Part shown: one piece after another, positions 1-8,767 of the stretch
Position numbering within the stretch: the first letter of the stretch is position 1
Layout of the letters: each line of letters starts with the position of its first letter
DNA from: Granulicella sp.
GTDB lineage: Bacteria > Acidobacteriota > Terriglobia > Terriglobales > Acidobacteriaceae
Assembly (NCBI GenBank): GCA_003133205.1
Contig: PKWK01000333.1
Span: 1-12,701 of the forward strand
DNA: 12,701 bases
Direction of reading: 5' to 3'
Made by a program: the position numbers and the translations under genes
The notes under the pieces: generated by a model
Seen by the model: the letters and a program-made list of their open reading frames with translations, nothing else
What the model was told of the DNA's origin: nothing
Database searches by the model: none

Positions 1-289
1 CCGCCGCCTCGGCCTCGGCAAACACCGCGCGATTCACCGCCGGATTGTCCGTCGCCGCAACCACCAGAAACTGCCCGGCCAAATCGCCCGCAGCATACTC
101 GCGCTTGTGCCAGACGACTTCGCCCGATTCCGCCATCGCGACGATTCGCTCGCTCGCGGCCGGAGCGATCACGGTCACGCTGGCATTCGCCGCCCGTAGC
201 GATTCGATCTTCGACTCAGCAAGATTGCCCGCGCCGATCACGATGCAGGGCCGGCCAGTCAGCTTGAGGAAGATTGGGAATAGGGGCAT
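1..289 (-). CDS. Precorrin-2 dehydrogenase / sirohydrochlorin ferrochelatase, N-terminal part (CysG-N / Met8-type), truncated by window edge
   Basis: Ninety-six codons are visible before the left edge. The protein begins MPLFPIFLKLTGRPC and continues with a Rossmann dinucleotide-binding turn VIGAGNLAESK (Gly19, Gly21, Ala24). A second strand, SVTVIAP, follows, then FLVVAATDNPAVNRAVF (about 74-90), typical of the CysG N-terminal / Met8 family. That family oxidises precorrin-2 with NAD+ and inserts iron to make siroheme. The part expected to hold the catalytic aspartate lies outside the window, so I cannot say whether a SUMT methylase domain is fused. The ATG at 289 is preceded by a GGGAG Shine-Dalgarno about 10 bases upstream and lies 6 bp after the stop of the siroheme-dependent reductase. 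The two are almost certainly co-transcribed, with this enzyme supplying the cofactor of its neighbour. The family call is firm; the full domain make-up is unknown. Confidence 0.88.
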   Translation of the reverse strand, partial: MPLFPIFLKLTGRPCIVIGAGNLAESKIESLRAANASVTVIAPAASERIVAMAESGEVVWHKREYAAGDLAGQFLVVAATDNPAVNRAVFAEAEAA

Positions 290-295
290 GGCCCG

Positions 296-2041
296 CTACT
301 CTCCCGGCGCGTGTCGCCCAGCGCCCACTGGCGGAGCGTCGCGCTCGACTGGAGTGACGACAGTTCCGGCGAGTTGTGCGCGAAGGCTCTCATCATCCGT
401 ACGCGCGAAGTAGGCGCGCAGGTCCTCGCCCGGCTCGCGTGCGGCTAGATACGCCCGCAGCAGGCGCTCGAGCGCCTCGGGGCAGTCCTCTGCCGCCGCG
501 CGGAATCCGATCTGGCGAGCGATGCGCGCGTACTTGCCTACCGCGCCGCCGACGCAGAAGTAGAACGCGTCGACCATCACGCCGTCCTTCTTGATCTTCT
601 TGCCCTCGAGGCCGATGTCCGCGATCCAGCTTTGTCCGCACGAGTTGGTGCAGCCGGTGACGTGCAGCTTGATCTGTTGGTCGAATCCCGGCAGACGCTC
701 TTCCATCTCGCTGGTCAGCCACTTCGAAAAGGCCTTCGTCTCCGCGATCGCCAGCTTGCAGAATTCGGTCCCCGTGCAAGCGATCGCGCCGCGCCAGAAC
801 GGCGTCACTTCAACTTTCAGACCAATCTTATCTAGAGCATGCACCAGGTCGCGCGTGCGAGCGTTTGCGATATTGGCGAGCACAATGTTCTGCATGATGG
901 TCGCGCGCAATTGCCCGTCGCCGAACTCCTCCGCGAGATCGGCCAACTGGATCAGCTGGTCGCCGGAGAGCCGTCCGCCCATCACGCTCGCGCCCACCGC
1001 CGACAGTCCCGGCTGAAGCTGCGGGGTCACGCCCACGTGGTCGCGATACACATCATCGGGAACCACATCCGCCTCAATCGGCGACGGATCGAGTTTGTAA
1101 CCTAATTTGGCCTCGATCGCCTCGAGCATGGTCTCGGCCGTCCAGCCATGCCGCATGAACAGGTACTTAATGCGCGCACGTGTGCGGTTCTCGCGCAGCT
1201 CAACCTGCTCCTTGAAAATGCGCAGCACGGCTTCCACGACGGCGAACGCCTTGTCCTGCGAGATGAATGCCGGAATGCGTTCTCCTATGTGCGGCTCGGT
1301 AGAAAGCCCGCCACCGACGCGCAGCGTGTAGCCGATCTCTTCCAGGCCGTTGACCTCGCGCTTGATCGCAGTCAGCGCAACGTCGTTGATCTCCGGATAC
1401 GAGCACCACAGCGGGCAGCCCGTGACGGTAACCTTGAACTTTCGCGGCAGGTTGTAGAACTCCGGATTCGCCGTCAGCTTGTGCGCGACTTCAATTGCCA
1501 GCGGACTCGCATCGATCAGTTCATGTCCGTCGAGCCCCGCAATCGGGCAGCCCGTGACATTGCGCAGCACGTCGCCGCATGCGCCCTTGGGACTCAGCCC
1601 GATCTCGGTCAGCGCTTCCACGATCTCAGGCATCGCCTCGATGGTCAGCCAGTGCAACTGGATATTCTGCCGCGTGGAGATATCGGCCAGGTTGCGCGCA
1701 TGCTTCTTCGTCAATTCGCCGATGACGCGCAACTGGTGGGATGTCAGCAGCCCGTTCGGCAGCCCGATCCGCATCATGAAGTACTCGGTGGCCTTGCCCA
1801 CTCCATCCTTGCCGCCGGTCACGCCCAAACCGTCGCCCTGCGTGTACACGCCCCACCACTTGAAGTAGAACTCCGCCCATTCGGGCAGCACCGATGCACG
1901 GCCTTCGCGCGCAAACTGGCGCACCTCGTCCCACGCCTCCCACGGGTTCTTCGCGAGCTTCAGGCGCTCGGCCTTCTGAGCCTTGGTTTCCTTTGCGGCG
2001 GGGATTGCGGCCGGCGGCGGCTGGGTGGCGGTATCGCTCAT
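296..2041 (-). CDS. Ferredoxin-dependent siroheme/4Fe-4S sulfite (or nitrite) reductase
   Basis: The 581-residue protein is a duplicated NIR_SIR-type reductase (ferredoxin half-domains about 60-130 and 350-410, catalytic repeats between and after). It performs a six-electron reduction of sulfite to sulfide or nitrite to ammonia in the cytoplasm. The iron-sulfur cluster/siroheme cysteines are C422-x5-C428 (CTGTEFC) and C464-x3-C468 (GCTNSC). Siroheme-pocket residues include Arg124 (STRQN), Arg160 (VLRNV) and Lys201-Phe-Lys203 (LPRKFK). Lys-x-Lys is the sulfite-reductase pattern; plant nitrite reductase has Lys-x-Asn there, so I favour sulfite reductase. Tyr66 (GVYTQ) and Cys155 (GACGD) are candidates for the Tyr-Cys crosslink known in the mycobacterial SirA/NirA enzyme. 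I chose the ATG at 2041, preceded by AGGA in CCAGGAATTT, over an in-frame GTG at 2125 that lies inside a leader hairpin and would add 28 unrelated residues. The siroheme synthesis gene follows directly. Family certain; sulfite over nitrite is an inference. Confidence 0.93.
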   Translation of the reverse strand: MSDTATQPPPAAIPAAKETKAQKAERLKLAKNPWEAWDEVRQFAREGRASVLPEWAEFYFKWWGVYTQGDGLGVTGGKDGVGKATEYFMMRIGLPNGLLTSHQLRVIGELTKKHARNLADISTRQNIQLHWLTIEAMPEIVEALTEIGLSPKGACGDVLRNVTGCPIAGLDGHELIDASPLAIEVAHKLTANPEFYNLPRKFKVTVTGCPLWCSYPEINDVALTAIKREVNGLEEIGYTLRVGGGLSTEPHIGERIPAFISQDKAFAVVEAVLRIFKEQVELRENRTRARIKYLFMRHGWTAETMLEAIEAKLGYKLDPSPIEADVVPDDVYRDHVGVTPQLQPGLSAVGASVMGGRLSGDQLIQLADLAEEFGDGQLRATIMQNIVLANIANARTRDLVHALDKIGLKVEVTPFWRGAIACTGTEFCKLAIAETKAFSKWLTSEMEERLPGFDQQIKLHVTGCTNSCGQSWIADIGLEGKKIKKDGVMVDAFYFCVGGAVGKYARIARQIGFRAAAEDCPEALERLLRAYLAAREPGEDLRAYFARTDDESLRAQLAGTVVTPVERDAPPVGAGRHAPGE

Positions 2042-2118
2042 AAATTCCTGGAGGTCCTTATCGATTGCGGCTGAAGTTCGCTGACGGATAGCAACGAAAT
2101 GGATGTCTAAATGAAAAT

Positions 2119-2139
2119 CGCCCACCAGATTCGTGGGCG
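2119..2139 (-). promoter_or_regulatory. Hairpin in the leader of the sulfite reductase gene (candidate attenuator)
   Basis: A perfect 7-bp inverted repeat, CGCCCAC and GTGGGCG, is separated by a 7-base loop. Read on the minus strand it is followed directly by ATTTTCATTT, a short interrupted T-rich tract, so it resembles a weak intrinsic terminator. It lies 77 bases upstream of the reductase ATG and about 40 bases after the stop of the cysteine-rich leader ORF. The sequence CGCCC in leader codons 23-24 could compete for the GGGCG of the right arm, giving an alternative fold; this is inference from eye inspection only. Confidence 0.5.
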
Positions 2140-2177
2140 CTCGGAGCAGCTTGTCCGCTTTCGTATTGGATTGAACT

Positions 2178-2264
2178 CTACGATGCGGGACAGGGGCGAC
2201 GGCGCGCGGCGTCGCAACAACAGGTCGAACAGCACGCGGGCGGATTTTGGTCGCGCATCCTCAT
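2178..2264 (-). CDS. Cysteine-rich 28-aa leader peptide upstream of sulfite reductase (candidate cysteine-sensing attenuator ORF)
   Basis: This short ORF starts with ATG at 2264 and ends with TAG at 2178-2180. The peptide begins MRMRDQNPPA and continues CCSTCCCDAA, then an RRRP-C-PAS tail. Six of 28 residues are cysteine (11, 12, 15, 16, 17, 25), and five fall within seven consecutive codons. No protein domain is expected; the role would be ribosome stalling when charged Cys-tRNA is scarce. It stands 136 bases before the ATG of a sulfite reductase, whose pathway product is cysteine, with a hairpin in between. A promoter-like pair (TTGACT, 18 bp, TAAGCT) puts the expected transcription start at or next to the ATG, so it may be leaderless; the only Shine-Dalgarno-like sequence is GGAAG two bases from the ATG. 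Polycysteine leaderless leader ORFs acting as cysteine-responsive attenuators are known in mycobacteria; I know of no acidobacterial example. Sequence facts are certain; the function is inferred. Confidence 0.62.
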   Translation of the reverse strand: MRMRDQNPPACCSTCCCDAARRRPCPAS

Positions 2265-2271
2265 TGCTTCC

Positions 2272-2301
2272 AGCTTAATCGCGCCGCGCCCTTTGAGTCA
2301 A
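2272..2301 (-). promoter_or_regulatory. Candidate promoter of the leader ORF-sulfite reductase-siroheme synthase operon
   Basis: Read on the minus strand, TTGACT (2296-2301, one mismatch to the -35 consensus) is followed after 18 bp by TAAGCT (2272-2277), which keeps the T1, A2 and T6 positions of a -10 box. A start 7-8 bases downstream falls at 2264-2265, exactly at the ATG of the cysteine-rich leader ORF. The leader before the reductase would then be about 220 bases long. The -10 match is only moderate. Confidence 0.4.
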
Positions 2302-3138: not shown

Positions 3139-4311
3139 TTAGGTTCCGAAGACCGCGTGGACATAGTTGCCGTAGCCGACGATGATGGTGGATCCGACCA
3201 GCAGGAAGAGGCCGCAGGTGACCAGCAGCTTGGTTCGCAAGCTGGTGCCGTGCCACTCCTTCAACACCAGGCCCCACAGCGTGGCGAAGATGATGATCGA
3301 CGCCATATGCAGGGTCCACGACGAGAAGTCGTACTTGCCCATCTTGGTCTGGCCCATCGAATAAAAGAAGAACTGGAAGTACCAGATGACGCCGGCCATC
3401 GCGGCAAAGACGTAGTTGAAGAAGAGCGTGGCCGGTGCGAGGCGGTCGAAGGTGGACGGATCAAGTGGATCTAAGTCGACGAGCGTGTCGCCAGAGGTAG
3501 CGGCAGCGCGCATGGGGTTGATTCCGGGCTCGCCGGCGAACTGGCGCCGGGAACCGTTCTGGAAGATGAGGATGGAGGACCAGATGAAGTTGGTGAAGAA
3601 ACCGCCCAGCAGAACGACGATCAGGACAGGCAGGTTAGCCCAGAGATCGAGCCTGCCGTTGGCGATGAGTTCGGCCTTGGCGAGGGCGGCAATAGGCTTG
3701 CCGGCATCGAGGCCAAAGGCGAAGAAGGAACTCATGAATCCCGCGAGAACAGCGATCGCGATGCCCTTGCCGAAGTTGTAGTCCCGTTCGCCGGCTTCCA
3801 GCTTCTCTTCGGGGGTGATTTCCTTTTCCTTGGAATACCCGGCGGCACCGTTGACCGCGACTCCGACGAGGCAGACGAAGACGCCGAAGAGGATGATTCT
3901 GCCAGAGGTCTGGTGAAACAGCGTAGTGATCTGGCGGTGGTAGACGGGCGGAACGAGGGTTCCGAAGAAGGCGCAAAGGCCCAGGGCGATGGCGTATCCG
4001 AGCGCGATGCCAAGGTAGCGGATGGCGAGGCCGAAGGTGATTCCACCGACGCCCCACATTATGCCCCAGAGGACGGCGTAGCCGATGCTGCTGGGGTCGG
4101 TGCGATACGCCTGGTGCAGGATGGGCCAGACGTGCGGGACGAAGAGGCTGGCAAGCAGCGACGGCGCAATGATCCATGCGGCGAAGCCCTGGATAATCCA
4201 GTAGACCTCCCATGACCAGCGCTTGATGCCGCGGAAGGGGATGAAGTTGGTGGCGGAACAGAAGCCCCCAATCCAGTGAAAGATGACGCCTAAAAGCGGA
4301 TTCGGTCCCAA
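3139..4311 (-). CDS. rhaT: L-rhamnose/H+ symporter RhaT
   Basis: The 390-residue integral membrane protein has about ten hydrophobic segments and matches the RhaT family throughout. Visible signatures are the first segment LLGVIFHWIGG followed by a WSWEVYW motif (32-38), WGVGGITFGLAIRYLG (86-101), and near the end WYFQFFFYSMG (310-320) and GLVLKEWHG (347-355). RhaT imports L-rhamnose with a proton across the inner membrane. E. coli RhaT has about 344 residues; part of the extra length here is a hydrophilic loop at 251-294 (RRQFAGEPG...LDPLDP) before the eighth or so segment. The start is TTG at 4311: the upstream in-frame codons hold no other start before a stop, the first transmembrane segment begins at residue 5, and GAGG lies about 4 bases before the TTG. 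It is divergent from lutABC-rhaI, which fits joint control of rhamnose use. Confidence 0.93.
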   Translation of the reverse strand: MGPNPLLGVIFHWIGGFCSATNFIPFRGIKRWSWEVYWIIQGFAAWIIAPSLLASLFVPHVWPILHQAYRTDPSSIGYAVLWGIMWGVGGITFGLAIRYLGIALGYAIALGLCAFFGTLVPPVYHRQITTLFHQTSGRIILFGVFVCLVGVAVNGAAGYSKEKEITPEEKLEAGERDYNFGKGIAIAVLAGFMSSFFAFGLDAGKPIAALAKAELIANGRLDLWANLPVLIVVLLGGFFTNFIWSSILIFQNGSRRQFAGEPGINPMRAAATSGDTLVDLDPLDPSTFDRLAPATLFFNYVFAAMAGVIWYFQFFFYSMGQTKMGKYDFSSWTLHMASIIIFATLWGLVLKEWHGTSLRTKLLVTCGLFLLVGSTIIVGYGNYVHAVFGT

Positions 4312-4513
4312 GGTGCCTCGCTGCGATCAAAGATTACGACTTAGACGGGTACCATCCTACCTGAGTGGATTCTATTGTGGAAATACATTGTCTATTGGAC
4401 TAAGGTGAATATCGAAGGCAATGGCGTGGCCGTTTGGACGCTGTTCAGAGGCAAATAAGACCGCGGATGAGCGCGGCGGGATTTGAGGCTGGATCGAGAA
4501 ACGGGGAGCAAGT
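4312..4513. promoter_or_regulatory. Divergent rhaT / lutABC control region
   Basis: This 202-bp gap separates the divergent starts of rhaT and lutA and must carry promoters for both. The middle (about 4365-4412) is much more AT-rich than the flanks. It contains an exact heptamer direct repeat TCTATTG at 4371-4377 and 4391-4397, 20 bp apart start to start, about two helical turns, as expected for a dimeric or AraC-type regulator. I could not find a confident -35/-10 pair for either direction. No RNA gene is visible. Confidence 0.45.
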
Positions 4514-5254
4514 TTGCGAGTTTCGCTATTTATTACCTGTTATAACGACACATTGTTTCCGGATACGGGCAAGGCGGTAGTGCGGGTTCTGGAGCGACTT
4601 GGGCATACGGTCGAGTTTCCGGCAGGGCAGACCTGCTGTGGGCAGATGCATTGGAATACGGGCTACCAGGAAGAGGCGATGCCCCTGCTGAGCCGGTTCG
4701 TCGAGCAGTTCAAACATGCAGAGGCGGTGGTGAGTCCTTCAACGAGCTGCATTGCGATGATGCGGGACCACTATCCGATCATGGCAGAGCGTTCGAAGGA
4801 CAAGAAGCTGCAAGCCGCTGTTGCAGAACTGCTTCCGAAGGTCTGGGAGTTCTCGGAGTTCCTGACGCAGAAGCTTGGGTTGGAGGATGTGGGCGCGTAT
4901 TATCCGCACCGCGTGACCTACCATGCGAGCTGTCACGGGTTGCGCAGTCTGCATATTGGCGATGGGCCGATGCGGCTGCTGCGCGCGGTGAAGGGGATCG
5001 ACCTGGTGGAGATCGAGAACCTGGAACAGTGCTGTGGGTTTGGCGGAACATTCGCCATCAAGAACGCCGAAGTCTCGAGCGCGATGCTGTCGGAGAAGGT
5101 GCGAGGCGTTCTGAATACGCGGGCGGAAGCGGTGACGGGATGCGATAACTCCTGCCTGATGCACATCGGCGGGGCACTGCACCGGCAGAGGACGGGCGTG
5201 AAGCCGGTGCATCTTGCGGAGATTCTGGCGAGCGAAGAGGGCGGTCAGCAATGA
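4514..5254 (+). CDS. lutA: LutA-type lactate utilisation protein (CCG-domain iron-sulfur subunit)
   Basis: The 246-residue protein (B. subtilis LutA has about 238) contains two cysteine-rich CCG domains. The first has Cys9, Cys41-Cys42-Gly43 and Cys79; the second has Cys140 (HASCHG), Cys173-Cys174-Gly175 (EQCCGFGG), Cys210 and Cys214 (GCDNSC). Such domains bind an iron-sulfur centre like that of heterodisulfide reductase and glycolate oxidase GlcF. With LutB and LutC it forms a cytoplasmic complex that oxidises L-lactate to pyruvate. The start is TTG at 4514, giving the family's usual MRVSLFITC beginning, with GGGGAG five bases upstream and no ATG or GTG nearby. The stop overlaps the lutB start by 4 bp (ATGA), indicating translational coupling. 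The gene is also called ykgE or lldE. Confidence 0.93.
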   Translation: MRVSLFITCYNDTLFPDTGKAVVRVLERLGHTVEFPAGQTCCGQMHWNTGYQEEAMPLLSRFVEQFKHAEAVVSPSTSCIAMMRDHYPIMAERSKDKKLQAAVAELLPKVWEFSEFLTQKLGLEDVGAYYPHRVTYHASCHGLRSLHIGDGPMRLLRAVKGIDLVEIENLEQCCGFGGTFAIKNAEVSSAMLSEKVRGVLNTRAEAVTGCDNSCLMHIGGALHRQRTGVKPVHLAEILASEEGGQQ

Positions 5255-6783
5255 GCGGAGCGGCTTTGGATCCGAGGACGGCGCCGAAGTTTCAGGTGGC
5301 GGCAAAGGCGCTGATGGGCGATTCGCAGTTGCGCAAGAACGTGCGCCACGCGACCAAGGTGATCCAGACCAAGCGCGCCAAAGTGGTCGCCGAGATGCCG
5401 GACTGGCAGGAGTTGCGCGAGTCGGGCAAGCAGATTCGCAAGCACACGATGCGGCATCTGGACTTCTACCTGGAGCAGTTTGAGCGCAACTGCACGGCCG
5501 CGGGTGGCGTGGTCCACTGGGCGCGGGACGCCGAGGACGCACGACGGATCGTCGTCGGGCTGGTGAAGGCGAGCGGTGCGAACAGCGCCTCGCCGACCGA
5601 GGTCATCAAAATCAAGTCCATGACGACCGAGGAGATTCAGCTCAACAAGGCGCTCGAAGCGGCAGGAATCCACGCGTACGAGACTGACCTGGCGGAGCTG
5701 ATCATTCAGCTCGGACACGACCAGCCCTCGCACATCGTCGTGCCTGCGCTGCATAAGAACCGCTCGCAGATCCGCGAAATATTTCAGCGCGAGATGAATC
5801 TGCCCGATCTTGGCGGCACGCCGCAGGACCTTGCGGATGCCGCGCGAAAGTTTTTGCGCGAGAAGTTTCTGCGGGTGAAGACCGCCGTAAGCGGGGCGAA
5901 TTTCCTGGTCGCGGAGACGGGCAGCGTGTGCATCGTCGAAAGCGAGGGCAACGGGCGTATGTGCCTGACACTGCCCGAGACGCTGATCTCGGTGGCGGGC
6001 ATCGACAAGGTAGTGCCGACGTTCCAGGACCTCGAAGTGATGCTGCAGTTGCTGCCGCGGAGTGCGACGGGCGAGCGGATGAATCCGTACAACTCGATCT
6101 GGACGGGGGTAGACAAAACTTCGAACGGCGGCGATGGGCCGCGCGCCTTCCACGTTGTGCTGATGGACAACGCGCGGACCGAGATCCTGGCAGACGAGGA
6201 GTCGCGCCAGACGCTCCACTGCATCCGCTGCGGCGCCTGCCAGAACGCCTGCCCGGTGTATCAGCAGACCGGTGGCCACGCGTATGGGAGCGTGTATGCG
6301 GGGCCGATCGGGGCGATCCTGACGCCGCAGTTGATGGAGATGCATCATGCGCAGAGTTTGCCGTATGCGTCGAGCCTGTGCGGCGCGTGCTACGAAGTTT
6401 GCCCGGTGAAGATCAATATTCCCGAGGTGCTGATCCACCTGCGCAACAAGGTGGTGAAACAGCAATCATCGGGATTCAACATTCTCGCCAACCCCGAGGT
6501 GATGGCGCTGAAGGCTGTGGCGATGGTCTTCCGCAGCGAACCGGTCTTTCGCGCGGCACAAAAGCTTGGGCGATTGGGCGAACTGCCGCTGTCGCGCAAG
6601 GATGGGCAGGGCGAGGGCTGGATCGAGTGGCTACCCGGAATGCTCGGCGGATGGACGCAGGTGCGTGACCTGCACGTGATGCCGAAGCAGACGTTCCGGG
6701 AATGGTTTGAAAAGCGCAGCAAAGACGCGGCAGGCAGGCGAGCCGGCGACAAGGCTGGGAAGGGGTCGGACGATGGGCGTTGA
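5251..6783 (+). CDS. lutB: LutB-type lactate utilisation iron-sulfur protein
   Basis: The 510-residue protein has an N-terminal LUD domain (roughly 60-300), including FLVAETGSVCIVESEGN and the ERMNPYNSIWTG segment. A ferredoxin-like 2x[4Fe-4S] part follows: C324-x2-C327-x2-C330-x3-C334-P (CIRCGACQNACP) and C377-x2-C380-x3-C384-P (CGACYEVCP). The C-terminal part (about 400-480) is the LutB tail. It is the electron-transfer subunit of the lactate-oxidising LutABC complex (YkgF/LldF). The ATG overlaps the lutA stop by 4 bp and the last 11 bp overlap the start of lutC, so the three are translated from one message. It is slightly longer than B. subtilis LutB (about 479), the extra being a charged C-terminal tail rich in Lys, Arg and Gly. 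Confidence 0.93.
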   Translation: MSGAALDPRTAPKFQVAAKALMGDSQLRKNVRHATKVIQTKRAKVVAEMPDWQELRESGKQIRKHTMRHLDFYLEQFERNCTAAGGVVHWARDAEDARRIVVGLVKASGANSASPTEVIKIKSMTTEEIQLNKALEAAGIHAYETDLAELIIQLGHDQPSHIVVPALHKNRSQIREIFQREMNLPDLGGTPQDLADAARKFLREKFLRVKTAVSGANFLVAETGSVCIVESEGNGRMCLTLPETLISVAGIDKVVPTFQDLEVMLQLLPRSATGERMNPYNSIWTGVDKTSNGGDGPRAFHVVLMDNARTEILADEESRQTLHCIRCGACQNACPVYQQTGGHAYGSVYAGPIGAILTPQLMEMHHAQSLPYASSLCGACYEVCPVKINIPEVLIHLRNKVVKQQSSGFNILANPEVMALKAVAMVFRSEPVFRAAQKLGRLGELPLSRKDGQGEGWIEWLPGMLGGWTQVRDLHVMPKQTFREWFEKRSKDAAGRRAGDKAGKGSDDGR

Positions 6784-7450
6784 AGTGGCTGCAAGTTCTT
6801 CGCGGGATGAGGTGTTGCGGCGGATTCGTGCGGCGATTGCAGATGCTCCGGCGGTCGACGCCACGTTGATTCGCGGCGAGTGGGACGCATTGCCACGGAA
6901 CTATAAGCGGACCGCGTCGCTCGACCGCGAGGCGATTCTGGAGATGCTGGAGGATCGTTTGCGCGACTACGACGCCAACGTGGTGCGGGCGAAGGCCGGC
7001 GAAGTTAGCGCGGAGATTGCTCGGATTCTGGCCGAACGGGGCAAGCGGCGCCTGGTTGTGCCGATGGGACTGGCGGAGGCGCTCGGCGAATCGCTGCCCG
7101 CTGGCGTTGAGTTTGTCGTCGATAAGGGGCTGACTATAGAGGAGTTGGATAGCTTCGAGGGCGTCGTCACGGCGTCAACGGTGGCGATTGCGGAGACCGG
7201 CACGATTGTGCTGCAGAACGTCCCGGGGCAAGGCCGACGGGCGCCGACGCTGATTCCCGATTACCACCTATGCGTGGTGCGGGCTGCAGACGTGGTGGAA
7301 ACCGTTCCGGAGGCGATGGCACGGTTGCAGGCAGGTGCTTCGCTGGCAACGACCTTCGTGTCGGGGCCATCGGCGACCGCGGACATCGAGATGACGCGGA
7401 TCAAGGGAGTGCATGGGCCGCGATTTCTGGATGTGATCCTGTCGACATAG
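6773..7450 (+). CDS. lutC: LutC-type lactate utilisation protein (LUD domain)
   Basis: The 225-residue protein is a single LUD domain with the hallmark TASTVAIAETGTIVLQN (about 140-156) followed by PTLIPDYHLCVV and a C-terminal GPSATADIEMTRIKGVHGP segment, which ends the family domain. It is the third subunit of the LutABC L-lactate oxidation complex (YkgG/LldG). The chosen ATG at 6773 overlaps the end of lutB by 11 bp and has AAGGGG about 8 bases upstream. A longer in-frame start at 6707 would add only lutB-overlapping, low-complexity residues. The gene is followed by a 108-bp gap with promoter-like sequence before rhaI. Confidence 0.92.
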   Translation: MGVEVAASSSRDEVLRRIRAAIADAPAVDATLIRGEWDALPRNYKRTASLDREAILEMLEDRLRDYDANVVRAKAGEVSAEIARILAERGKRRLVVPMGLAEALGESLPAGVEFVVDKGLTIEELDSFEGVVTASTVAIAETGTIVLQNVPGQGRRAPTLIPDYHLCVVRAADVVETVPEAMARLQAGASLATTFVSGPSATADIEMTRIKGVHGPRFLDVILST

Positions 7451-7504
7451 GCCGGTTCCGTCCGCCGGAATATTTTGCGAAAAGGGCGATGAACTTTCAT
7501 TCCA

Positions 7505-7529
7505 AAACGGTTTCAATAGAGAGTATATT
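7505..7529 (+). promoter_or_regulatory. Candidate operator and -10 element upstream of rhaI
   Basis: AAAC-G-GTTT (7505-7513) is a short palindrome in an AT-rich stretch, resembling half of a LacI-family operator. TATATT (7524-7529) is a good -10 box, 29 bases before the rhaI ATG; no strong -35 is visible at the expected distance. The palindrome would lie between -35 and -10, where a repressor could block initiation. Together they suggest rhaI has its own regulated promoter besides read-through from lutABC. Confidence 0.3.
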
Positions 7530-7558
7530 TCCGTAATTGAAGTATTGAGGGGTTTTAC

Positions 7559-8767
7559 ATGGGCGTGAATGGGGCAGGGGCCGGCGCGAGCGCGACGGAG
7601 CGGATATTTACGGCGCTGGATGGTTTCCGGATCGAGGTCCCATCGTGGGGCTTTGCGAATACGGGGACGCGGTTCGGCAAGTTCTCTCAGGCGGGCGCGG
7701 CGACGACGATTGAGGAGAAGTTTGCCGATGCGGCGCAGGTCAACAAGCTGACTGGCGCCAGTCCGACGGTCGCGCTGCACGTGCTCTGGGACCTGCCGAA
7801 CGGCAAGGGCGATGTGCCGGAGATCAAGCGGCTGGAGAGCAAGTTTGGGGTGAAGGCGGGTTCGATCAACCCGAATCTCTTCCAGGCGCAGGAGTACAAG
7901 TTCGGCTCGATTGCGAACCCAAGCGCGGAGATTCGCGGCAATGCGCTGGCGCACCTGCTGGATTCCGTCGAAATCGGGCTCGAACTGGGCTCGAAGGATG
8001 TTTCGCTGTGGATCGCCGACGGGTCGAACTATCCGGGCACGCAGTCGATCCGCAAGCGCATCGAGTGGATGGAAGAGGTGTTGGCAGCGACCCATGCGGC
8101 GCTTGGCCCCGATCAGCGGATGCTGGTGGAGTACAAGCCGTTTGAGCCGGCTTTTTATCACACCGACATCGCGGACTGGGGCATGGCGCTTGAACTGTCG
8201 CGGCGCGCGGGCCCGAAGGCCAAGGTGCTGGTCGACACGGGCCATCATCTGCAGGGCACGAATATCGAGCAGATCGTGACCTGGCTGCTGCATTGCGATG
8301 CGCTGGGCGGGTTCCACTTCAACGATCGCAAGTACGCGGACGACGATCTGACGCTGGGGTCGATCGATCCTTACCAGGTGTTCCGCATCTTCCACGAGAT
8401 TCTGAGCTGCCCGGATGCGAAGGCTACGGGCGGAATCGCTTACATGATCGACCAAAGCCACAACCTGAAGGGCAAGGTGGAGGCGATGGTGCAGACCGTG
8501 GTGATGGCGCAGGAGCTGTTTGCCAAGGCAGCGCTGGTCGACCACGAGAAGCTCGCAGCCTTGCAGCAGTCGTGCGACCTGGTTGCGGCGGAAGAGATCC
8601 TGCGAACCGCGTTCTGGACCGACGTGCGGCCTGTGGTGAAGGAGTGGCGGCAGGCGCGCAAGCTGCCGGTCGAACCGCTTGCGGCGCTGAAGGAGAGCGG
8701 CTACGTGGAGACGATCAGCAAAGAACGCGGTGCGCGCAACGCGAACAGCGTTTCGAGCTACGTGTAG
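7559..8767 (+). CDS. rhaI: L-rhamnose isomerase, RhaI (Pseudomonas stutzeri) type
   Basis: The 402-residue enzyme converts L-rhamnose to L-rhamnulose, the first cytoplasmic step of rhamnose breakdown. It is a xylose-isomerase-like TIM barrel with two metal ions. The metal ligands and catalytic residues known in P. stutzeri RhaI can be matched with a constant offset: Glu191 and Lys193 (VEYKP), Asp226 and His229 (LVDTGHH), His253 (GGFHFND), Asp261 and Asp263 (YADDDL) and Asp298 (MIDQSHN). Trp151 (LWIADG) and His74 also fit. This type differs from the E. coli RhaA family. The ATG at 7559 has GAGGGG six bases upstream. It follows lutABC with a 108-bp gap and lies near rhaT, supporting a rhamnose role. 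Rhamnulokinase, aldolase and lactaldehyde dehydrogenase are absent from the window. Confidence 0.95.
   Translation: MGVNGAGAGASATERIFTALDGFRIEVPSWGFANTGTRFGKFSQAGAATTIEEKFADAAQVNKLTGASPTVALHVLWDLPNGKGDVPEIKRLESKFGVKAGSINPNLFQAQEYKFGSIANPSAEIRGNALAHLLDSVEIGLELGSKDVSLWIADGSNYPGTQSIRKRIEWMEEVLAATHAALGPDQRMLVEYKPFEPAFYHTDIADWGMALELSRRAGPKAKVLVDTGHHLQGTNIEQIVTWLLHCDALGGFHFNDRKYADDDLTLGSIDPYQVFRIFHEILSCPDAKATGGIAYMIDQSHNLKGKVEAMVQTVVMAQELFAKAALVDHEKLAALQQSCDLVAAEEILRTAFWTDVRPVVKEWRQARKLPVEPLAALKESGYVETISKERGARNANSVSSYV

Follow-up and report, generated by a model that had tools for sequence, protein, structure and literature searches.

Attenuators of the trp and his type are ribosome-mediated, with a leader ORF in which codons for the pathway's end product are enriched and a terminator before the first gene. 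For cysteine, leaderless poly-Cys short ORFs have been described in mycobacteria, and the available part of the literature presents their cysteine-responsive effect as translational (Canestrari et al. 2020, as cited). A 2005 analysis of the mycobacterial leaders reported, in its accessible text, no conserved terminator hairpin, a possible role of Rho and Cys runs near the stop codon (PMC1262725). In 2015, leaderless Cys ORFs were put forward as possible first cases of cysteine-directed attenuation, as far as the available sections state (PMC4633059). In Rhodobacterales, the element uORFC-8-2 is, in the portion at hand, a predicted Cys-codon uORF followed by an intrinsic terminator before cysS, for which ribosome-mediated attenuation was proposed (PMC8632094). 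According to a 2010 study, a function is associated with almost none of the attenuators predicted in Acidobacteria and other such phyla (PMC2965389). The earlier note on the present locus knew of no acidobacterial case of a Cys leader attenuator, and none was found in our literature search, for which subscription papers were largely out of reach.

The window, which is the whole stretch of 12,701 nucleotides of Granulicella sp. DNA analysed here, carries a Cys-rich leader ORF on the minus strand ahead of a putative sulfite reductase gene, sir. The features of this region are as follows.

2296–2301, minus strand: -35 element TTGACT, assigned from the sequence and its match to the consensus.
2272–2277, minus strand: -10 element TAAGCT, 18 nt past the -35 element and 7 nt before the ATG, with a predicted leaderless start.
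2178–2264, minus strand: Cys leader ORF, 28 codons from ATG to TAG, translation MRMRDQNPPACCSTCCCDAARRRPCPAS followed by the stop, kept in relatives.
2214–2234, minus strand: Cys codon cluster (codons 11, 12, 15, 16 and 17), the proposed stalling site.
2226–2262, minus strand: segment 1, the ORF start and first Cys codons, predicted to pair with 2213–2179 at -26.9 kcal/mol.
2178–2206, minus strand: segment 2, the codons that follow the Cys cluster as far as the stop; it is proposed as the 5′ strand of the antiterminator and pairs with segment 3 at a predicted -25.0 kcal/mol.
2136–2166, minus strand: segment 3, the linker with 4 nt from the beginning of the terminator 5′ arm, proposed as the 3′ strand of the antiterminator.
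2119–2139, minus strand: intrinsic terminator hairpin CGCCCAC-GAATCTG-GTGGGCG, 7 bp and -13.1 kcal/mol, between the leader ORF and sir.
2109–2118, minus strand: U-rich terminator tail ATTTTCATTT, directly after the hairpin.
296–2041, minus strand: sir (protein P0002), a siroheme reductase of the NirA/SirA type with PF01077 and PF03460, assigned as assimilatory sulfite reductase.
2–289, minus strand: siroheme synthase N-terminal domain protein, TIGR01470 above its cut-off and PF13241, the next gene after sir, cut by the window edge.

From 5′ to 3′, the minus strand carries the stop of phoU (TIGR02135), the gene ending upstream of the leader promoter, then the -35 and -10 elements, the ATG at 2264, the Cys ORF, the TAG at 2178, the linker, the hairpin and an SD-like AAGGACCTCCAGGA ahead of the sir ATG at 2041. 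Retranslation of 2178–2264 returned exactly what the earlier note had given, namely a 28-codon ORF with Cys at codons 11, 12, 15, 16, 17 and 25 (6/28) and 136 bases between its stop and the sir ATG. The promoter pair, the intrinsic terminator and the competing pairing are new relative to that note. The pair TTGACT/TAAGCT has 8/12 consensus matches and falls under the threshold of a stricter promoter scan, which listed none. From the promoter geometry, the transcription start is predicted at the ORF start codon and not downstream of 2178, where a start would have spoken against the reading of the earlier note.

The sir leader resembles the trp and his type in an ORF rich in end-product codons, in an intrinsic terminator before the first gene, and in its pairings, with 1:2 and 2:3 supported by a pooled comparison and 3:4 being the terminator. 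It differs in its signal, which would be cysteine for sulfate/sulfite reduction, in its predicted leaderless start codon and in an antiterminator pairing that equilibrium folding does not favour. With the mycobacterial ORFs, so far as the available descriptions go, it shares a short Cys-rich frame ahead of cysteine genes and, probably, a leaderless start; but a terminator is present in the window and in most sir leaders, contrary to the terminator-free mycobacterial trait, and the window's Cys cluster lies mid-ORF rather than near the stop codon. Compared with uORFC-8-2 as its accessible description gives it, the predicted Cys uORF with an intrinsic terminator is common to both; however, that element has two tandem Cys codons before cysS and the window ORF six before sir, and among 15 related genomes a Cys ORF preceded cysS in 0/15 by the strict (promoter-linked) rule and 1/15 by the loose one. 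On this evidence, the sir leader would act like a trp-type attenuator, while its 5′ end resembles that of the leaderless poly-Cys ORFs of mycobacteria. The kind of regulator is already known; to the extent of our searches, the combination and the host group are new.

We propose, with good confidence, that the element is a ribosome-mediated, cysteine-responsive transcription attenuator. The promoter would begin the mRNA at or beside the AUG of the leaderless Cys-rich ORF. When Cys-tRNA is ample, the ribosome would pass the Cys codons, reach the stop codon and cover segment 2; the downstream terminator would then fold and transcription would end ahead of sir. When Cys-tRNA is scarce, the ribosome would pause at the Cys cluster and leave segment 2 free to pair with the linker and the terminator 5′ arm, so that RNA polymerase would continue into sir and the siroheme gene. 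Translation of the ORF, its response to Cys-tRNA and termination in vivo are what we infer from these features. Such a switch looks like one that would let the cell make more cysteine only at cysteine shortage.

Any sequence has many short ORFs, and the frame ahead of sir might be one that arose by chance in the 5′ region of the gene. In the upstream region of the window the best ORF has 5 Cys in 9 residues, and 0/1000 dinucleotide-preserving shuffles got to 5, which bears out the earlier note's claim of an enrichment above chance. That note had also proposed looking in relatives for a short Cys-rich ORF whose frame is kept as the sequence diverges, and both were found. A genome contig scan gave 206 loci encoding a relative, and the best 80 with the window made up a first set of 81 upstream regions; three of the 81 end at contig ends, leaving 78 testable, mostly from Acidobacteriaceae by title. 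Three loci (L016, L018 and L029) bear titles of other phyla, on metagenome bins. Under a promoter-linked rule (start codon 5–10 nt past the -10 box, at least 2 Cys in 9 residues for a Cys-rich ORF), 61 of these 78 loci, drawn from the best 80 of 206 plus the window, had a Cys ORF with a terminator, 3 a Cys ORF with no terminator call, 2 a single-Cys ORF with a terminator, 1 (L071) a Cys-free ORF and 11 no such ORF. Among the 11, L025, L027, L047, L054 and L080 have a Cys ORF and a terminator with a poorer or absent promoter match; because they were added to the promoter-linked loci, the count of loci with a Cys-rich ORF ahead of sir is 69/78. A recognisable leader before sir is missing in 7/78 (L061, L071, L016, L051, L055, L058 and L066). 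L061 counts among these because its leader precedes yeiH, the gene in front of sir, and L055 has a Cys-rich frame that lacks promoter and terminator and was hence left uncounted. The mean best Cys score of the 78 upstream regions was 3.37, versus 1.04 on the reverse strand and 1.47–1.69 in ten shuffle rounds.

A phylum-wide sample covered 297 genomes, and matches at E up to 1e-80 came from 36 of them, many of the genomes being common to the first set. The Cys ORF was found in 25/28 orthologous loci of this sample (at least 55% identity), being absent in L100, L101 and L118, and in 1/9 of its distant sir genes (36–41% identity), the one being L115. Thirteen further orthologous sir loci had the ORF in 12/13 by a looser rule, and further distant sir paralogues in 0/3. 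A -35 sequence of TTGAC or TTGNN at 17–18 nt spacing recurs in most orthologous leaders. By eye, the DNA just upstream of sir resembles the phoU end in L055, L058, L100 and L101, which have no Cys leader; L058 and L071, both without a Cys leader before sir, are titled Terriglobus. Two of the distant sir genes (L113 and L116) have a ACTATATTGACA / GCTATATTGACA stretch in common in their upstream regions, which may mark a site for a different regulator in other lineages of the phylum.

In the frame test, starts were chosen by promoter geometry alone, blind to Cys, in all 117 regions (81 + 36), with a gap of 5–8 nt allowed between the -10 box and the start codon, and Cys codons were counted over the 22 codons after the start. 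Seventy-seven unique loci qualified, with 334 Cys codons in frame 0 versus 90 in frame +1 and 78 in frame +2. At least 3 Cys codons were present in frame 0 in 68/77 loci, versus 4 and 5 in the other frames, and the frame-0 ORF closed within 45 codons in 77/77. Frame-0 Cys was below 2 in three of the 77 (L030, L072 and L115, the last of which has another start), and the test on 108 regions gave identical numbers. A chance ORF is refuted by this test, together with the shuffles of the window, and we give it practically no credence. Within the 5–8 nt allowed, the gap between the -10 box and the start codon was 6 nt in 39, 7 nt in 33 and 8 nt in 5 of the 77 promoter-anchored loci. The start codon lies 6–8 nt past the -10 box, and the mRNA is therefore probably leaderless.

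A strict detector (promoter score at least 8, gap 5–10 nt, at least 3 Cys in 9 residues) matched 52/77 sir regions versus 1/482 other ORFs of the same loci, and that one heads a yeiH-sir operon. Over 1.2 Mb of one genome, both strands, it gave 13 matches, of which two are the leaders of cysD and of a divergent receptor gene; the other 11 look like background. The Cys codons of the leaders are the rare TGT in 271/404 cases (83 leaders), versus 87/827 in the sir genes of the first set (best 80 of 206).

Clusters of the form CC-x-CCC might bind metal, and the product of the ORF could instead be a Cys-rich peptide with a metal-binding or redox-sensing role, acting either as an arrest peptide or in trans. 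However, residues besides Cys are little conserved between lineages by eye, and the Cys pattern itself varies from CC to CCACCCACCC. The downstream genes, moreover, serve sulfate/sulfite assimilation and not metal or redox control, and we regard a functional peptide as very improbable.

The best solved relative of P0002 is 1zj8, named a probable ferredoxin-dependent nitrite reductase NirA. Among NCBIfam models the NirA-type ones scored highest, every one below its cut-off, and because of this 'sulfite reductase' is to be read as an assignment. A nitrite reductase was considered on the strength of these models and set aside; the closest solved relative and the operon partners led us to prefer sulfite reductase, the assignment being helped by the siroheme gene and, in relatives, by the partners cysH and yeiH. 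Counting along the alignment, we place Tyr66 and Cys155 of P0002 opposite a Tyr and a Cys that probably correspond to the bonded pair.

Attention was then given to the RNA. A structured leader with a terminator would also fit a metabolite-binding riboswitch or a T-box, with the Cys codons a by-product of its sequence. Against this, an Rfam search of 1900–2600 on both strands found no family up to E = 1, T-box and SAM riboswitch included, and the whole leader of the window did not fold better than its shuffles (z -0.25). The leader sequence also diverges strongly between lineages, while the Cys codons hold the frame of the start codon. We consider a ligand-binding RNA of this kind extremely improbable. 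The terminator recurs: a U-tailed GC hairpin begins 41–165 nt ahead of the sir start codon across lineages despite its differing sequence.

The pairings that the attenuator would use were assessed over many leaders. Among the 117 upstream regions there are 83 unique leaders with ORF and terminator, which were reduced to 29 dissimilar ones. In each, region C runs from the ORF start to the last clustered Cys codon, region A is the remainder of the ORF with 10 nt beyond it, and region B is the stretch up to the end of the terminator 5′ arm. For A with B, corresponding to segments 2 and 3, the summed energy over the 29 leaders was -590.3 versus -482.3 (sd 16.8) for permuted partners, with 0/20000 permutations as good; A with the linker alone gave 92/20000 and A with the terminator 5′ arm alone 72/20000. 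With four leaders of doubtful terminator removed, the corresponding numbers were 0 for A with B, 225 for the linker and 264 for the arm, each of 20000, and A against shuffled B gave 0/400 as good (29 leaders). In the same 29 leaders pooled, the Cys segment with segment 2 (C with A) exceeded all shuffles (0/200), but the control pairing of C with B showed no excess, 164/200 shuffles being as good. Thus, in the pooled data, the pairings expected of a classical attenuator are present and the one it does not need is absent. The best duplex enters the terminator arm by at least 3 nt in 73/83 leaders, against a null mean of 59 (range 51–67, 20 rounds).

The claim of pairing rests on the pooled test because single leaders are seldom significant: the pairing falls in the best 5% of mismatched partners in just 10/83, and the window's own A:B duplex lies at the 14th percentile and occupies only 4 nt of the terminator arm. 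Consensus folds in 4 of 6 lineage groups have an A:B helix extending into the terminator arm, although the sequences of the groups are unlike. The largest group, 17 Granulicella leaders, gave no such helix with automatic alignment and a group of 16 Edaphobacter leaders a weak one, and compensatory changes within lineage groups are few (4/20, 1/17, 0/13, 1/21 and 1/9 predicted pairs). The conserved ORF, its kept frame, the terminator and the pairing potential pooled over many leaders, each established by sequence comparison, support the candidate cysteine-responsive attenuator of the earlier note.

Equilibrium folding of the 83 leaders with a model ribosome footprint gave a mean terminator probability of 0.82–0.89 with the ribosome stalled at Cys, 0.93 at the stop codon and 0.89 on naked RNA; the window gave 0.87 stalled versus 0.98 at the stop. 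The mean shift is in the right direction but small, a drop of at least 0.5 was obtained in 6/83 leaders, and no clean switch was seen in the 83. A simple thermodynamic switch was thus weak across these leaders. Given these folding results, the antiterminator must either prevail by folding before the terminator or be weaker than our model has it. The pairing excess and the folding results would be reconciled if A:B had a co-transcriptional head start.

That the terminator hardly switches at equilibrium would also suit a Cys ORF acting on translation, in which a stalled or terminating ribosome alters access to the ribosome-binding site of sir and the hairpin is incidental or marks the 3′ end of a small leader RNA. 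The closest tested precedent, in mycobacteria, is described as translational in the material available, the cysD leaders of several genomes have a Cys ORF with no terminator call, and some receptor Cys ORFs sit within an operon, far from a recognised promoter. For the sir leaders, however, the U-tailed hairpin is retained even though lineages differ in its sequence, and the pairing excess falls on the terminator arm and the linker preceding it. Control of translation is therefore held unlikely for sir, and transcription attenuation remains our preferred reading.

Besides sir, Cys ORFs precede cysD, yeiH-sir and the receptor gene. Upstream of cysD in seven genomes, a Cys ORF was found in six (five by the detector with promoter, and G245 by eye) and none in G261; over 23 cysD loci of a family sample the loose rule found it in 15 and the strict rule in 7. 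Four cysD leaders (L129 7256+, L130 7369-, L131 7186+ and L134 7962-) have a Cys ORF and promoter, but no intrinsic terminator was called in them; these leaders may therefore act through Rho or on translation. For cysK, a Cys ORF was found in 0/27 loci by the strict rule and 4/27 by the loose rule. One locus, L248, begins at a contig end; the stretch scanned there was not upstream DNA, and the locus is therefore not counted.

In G143, G313 and G315 an outer-membrane protein gene lies beside cysD on the opposite strand, with its own promoter-linked Cys ORF. The G143 protein, P0003, matches PF25183 and PF13620, with no TonB plug domain reported, an architecture which we take to be that of a TonB-type receptor. 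All 8/8 near full-length receptor orthologues (at least 60% identity, L237–L244) have Cys ORFs upstream, at up to 620 bases; at the other testable receptor loci, which are truncated copies or paralogues, a Cys ORF was found in 1/7. Two Cys ORFs are listed in 4/8 of the orthologues (L237, L238, L239 and L243), although at L243 the more distant of the two lies on the other strand of the cysD region and may be due to chance.

Taken together, we lean slightly towards the view that sulfur assimilation in Acidobacteriaceae is one regulon governed by Cys-tRNA sensing on separate leader ORFs. It would comprise sir (with the siroheme gene), cysDN-cysH, yeiH-sir and a dedicated outer-membrane receptor, whose gene has tandem Cys ORFs in several genomes. 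Such leaders would take the place of a cysteine-responsive transcription factor. Their origin would be separate from that of the mycobacterial system, and some operons would use transcription attenuation, others a form without a terminator. The conserved link to the outer-membrane receptor-like protein suggests a role for it in the uptake of a sulfur source. If the attenuator holds true, a major soil phylum gains a sulfur switch that is specific, can be tested and comes in dozens of natural variants, parallel to the mycobacterial poly-Cys ORFs with a different output stage, and both systems would show that one sensor, the ribosome on Cys codons, can be joined to termination or to translation.

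Some further arrangements were seen at the receptor genes. Where the Cys ORFs are in tandem, the nearer one often ends in a Cys run at the stop codon, as in the mycobacterial form. By eye, L241 and L243 have a short two-Cys ORF closer to the receptor gene, whereas L240, L242 and L244 have, in this order, a yeiH-like transporter gene, the Cys ORF and the receptor, with the Cys ORF inside the operon. In L240 and L242 the Cys ORF begins within the last part of the transporter frame, an arrangement suggestive of translational coupling.

Elsewhere in the window, positions 3139–8767 hold a minus-strand RhaT-like transporter gene, followed on the plus strand by a lactate-utilisation-like trio of LutA-like, LutB/LldF and LUD-domain genes and by a gene for an L-rhamnose isomerase-like protein; judged by this gene content, the region is likely a rhamnose-to-lactate catabolic locus.
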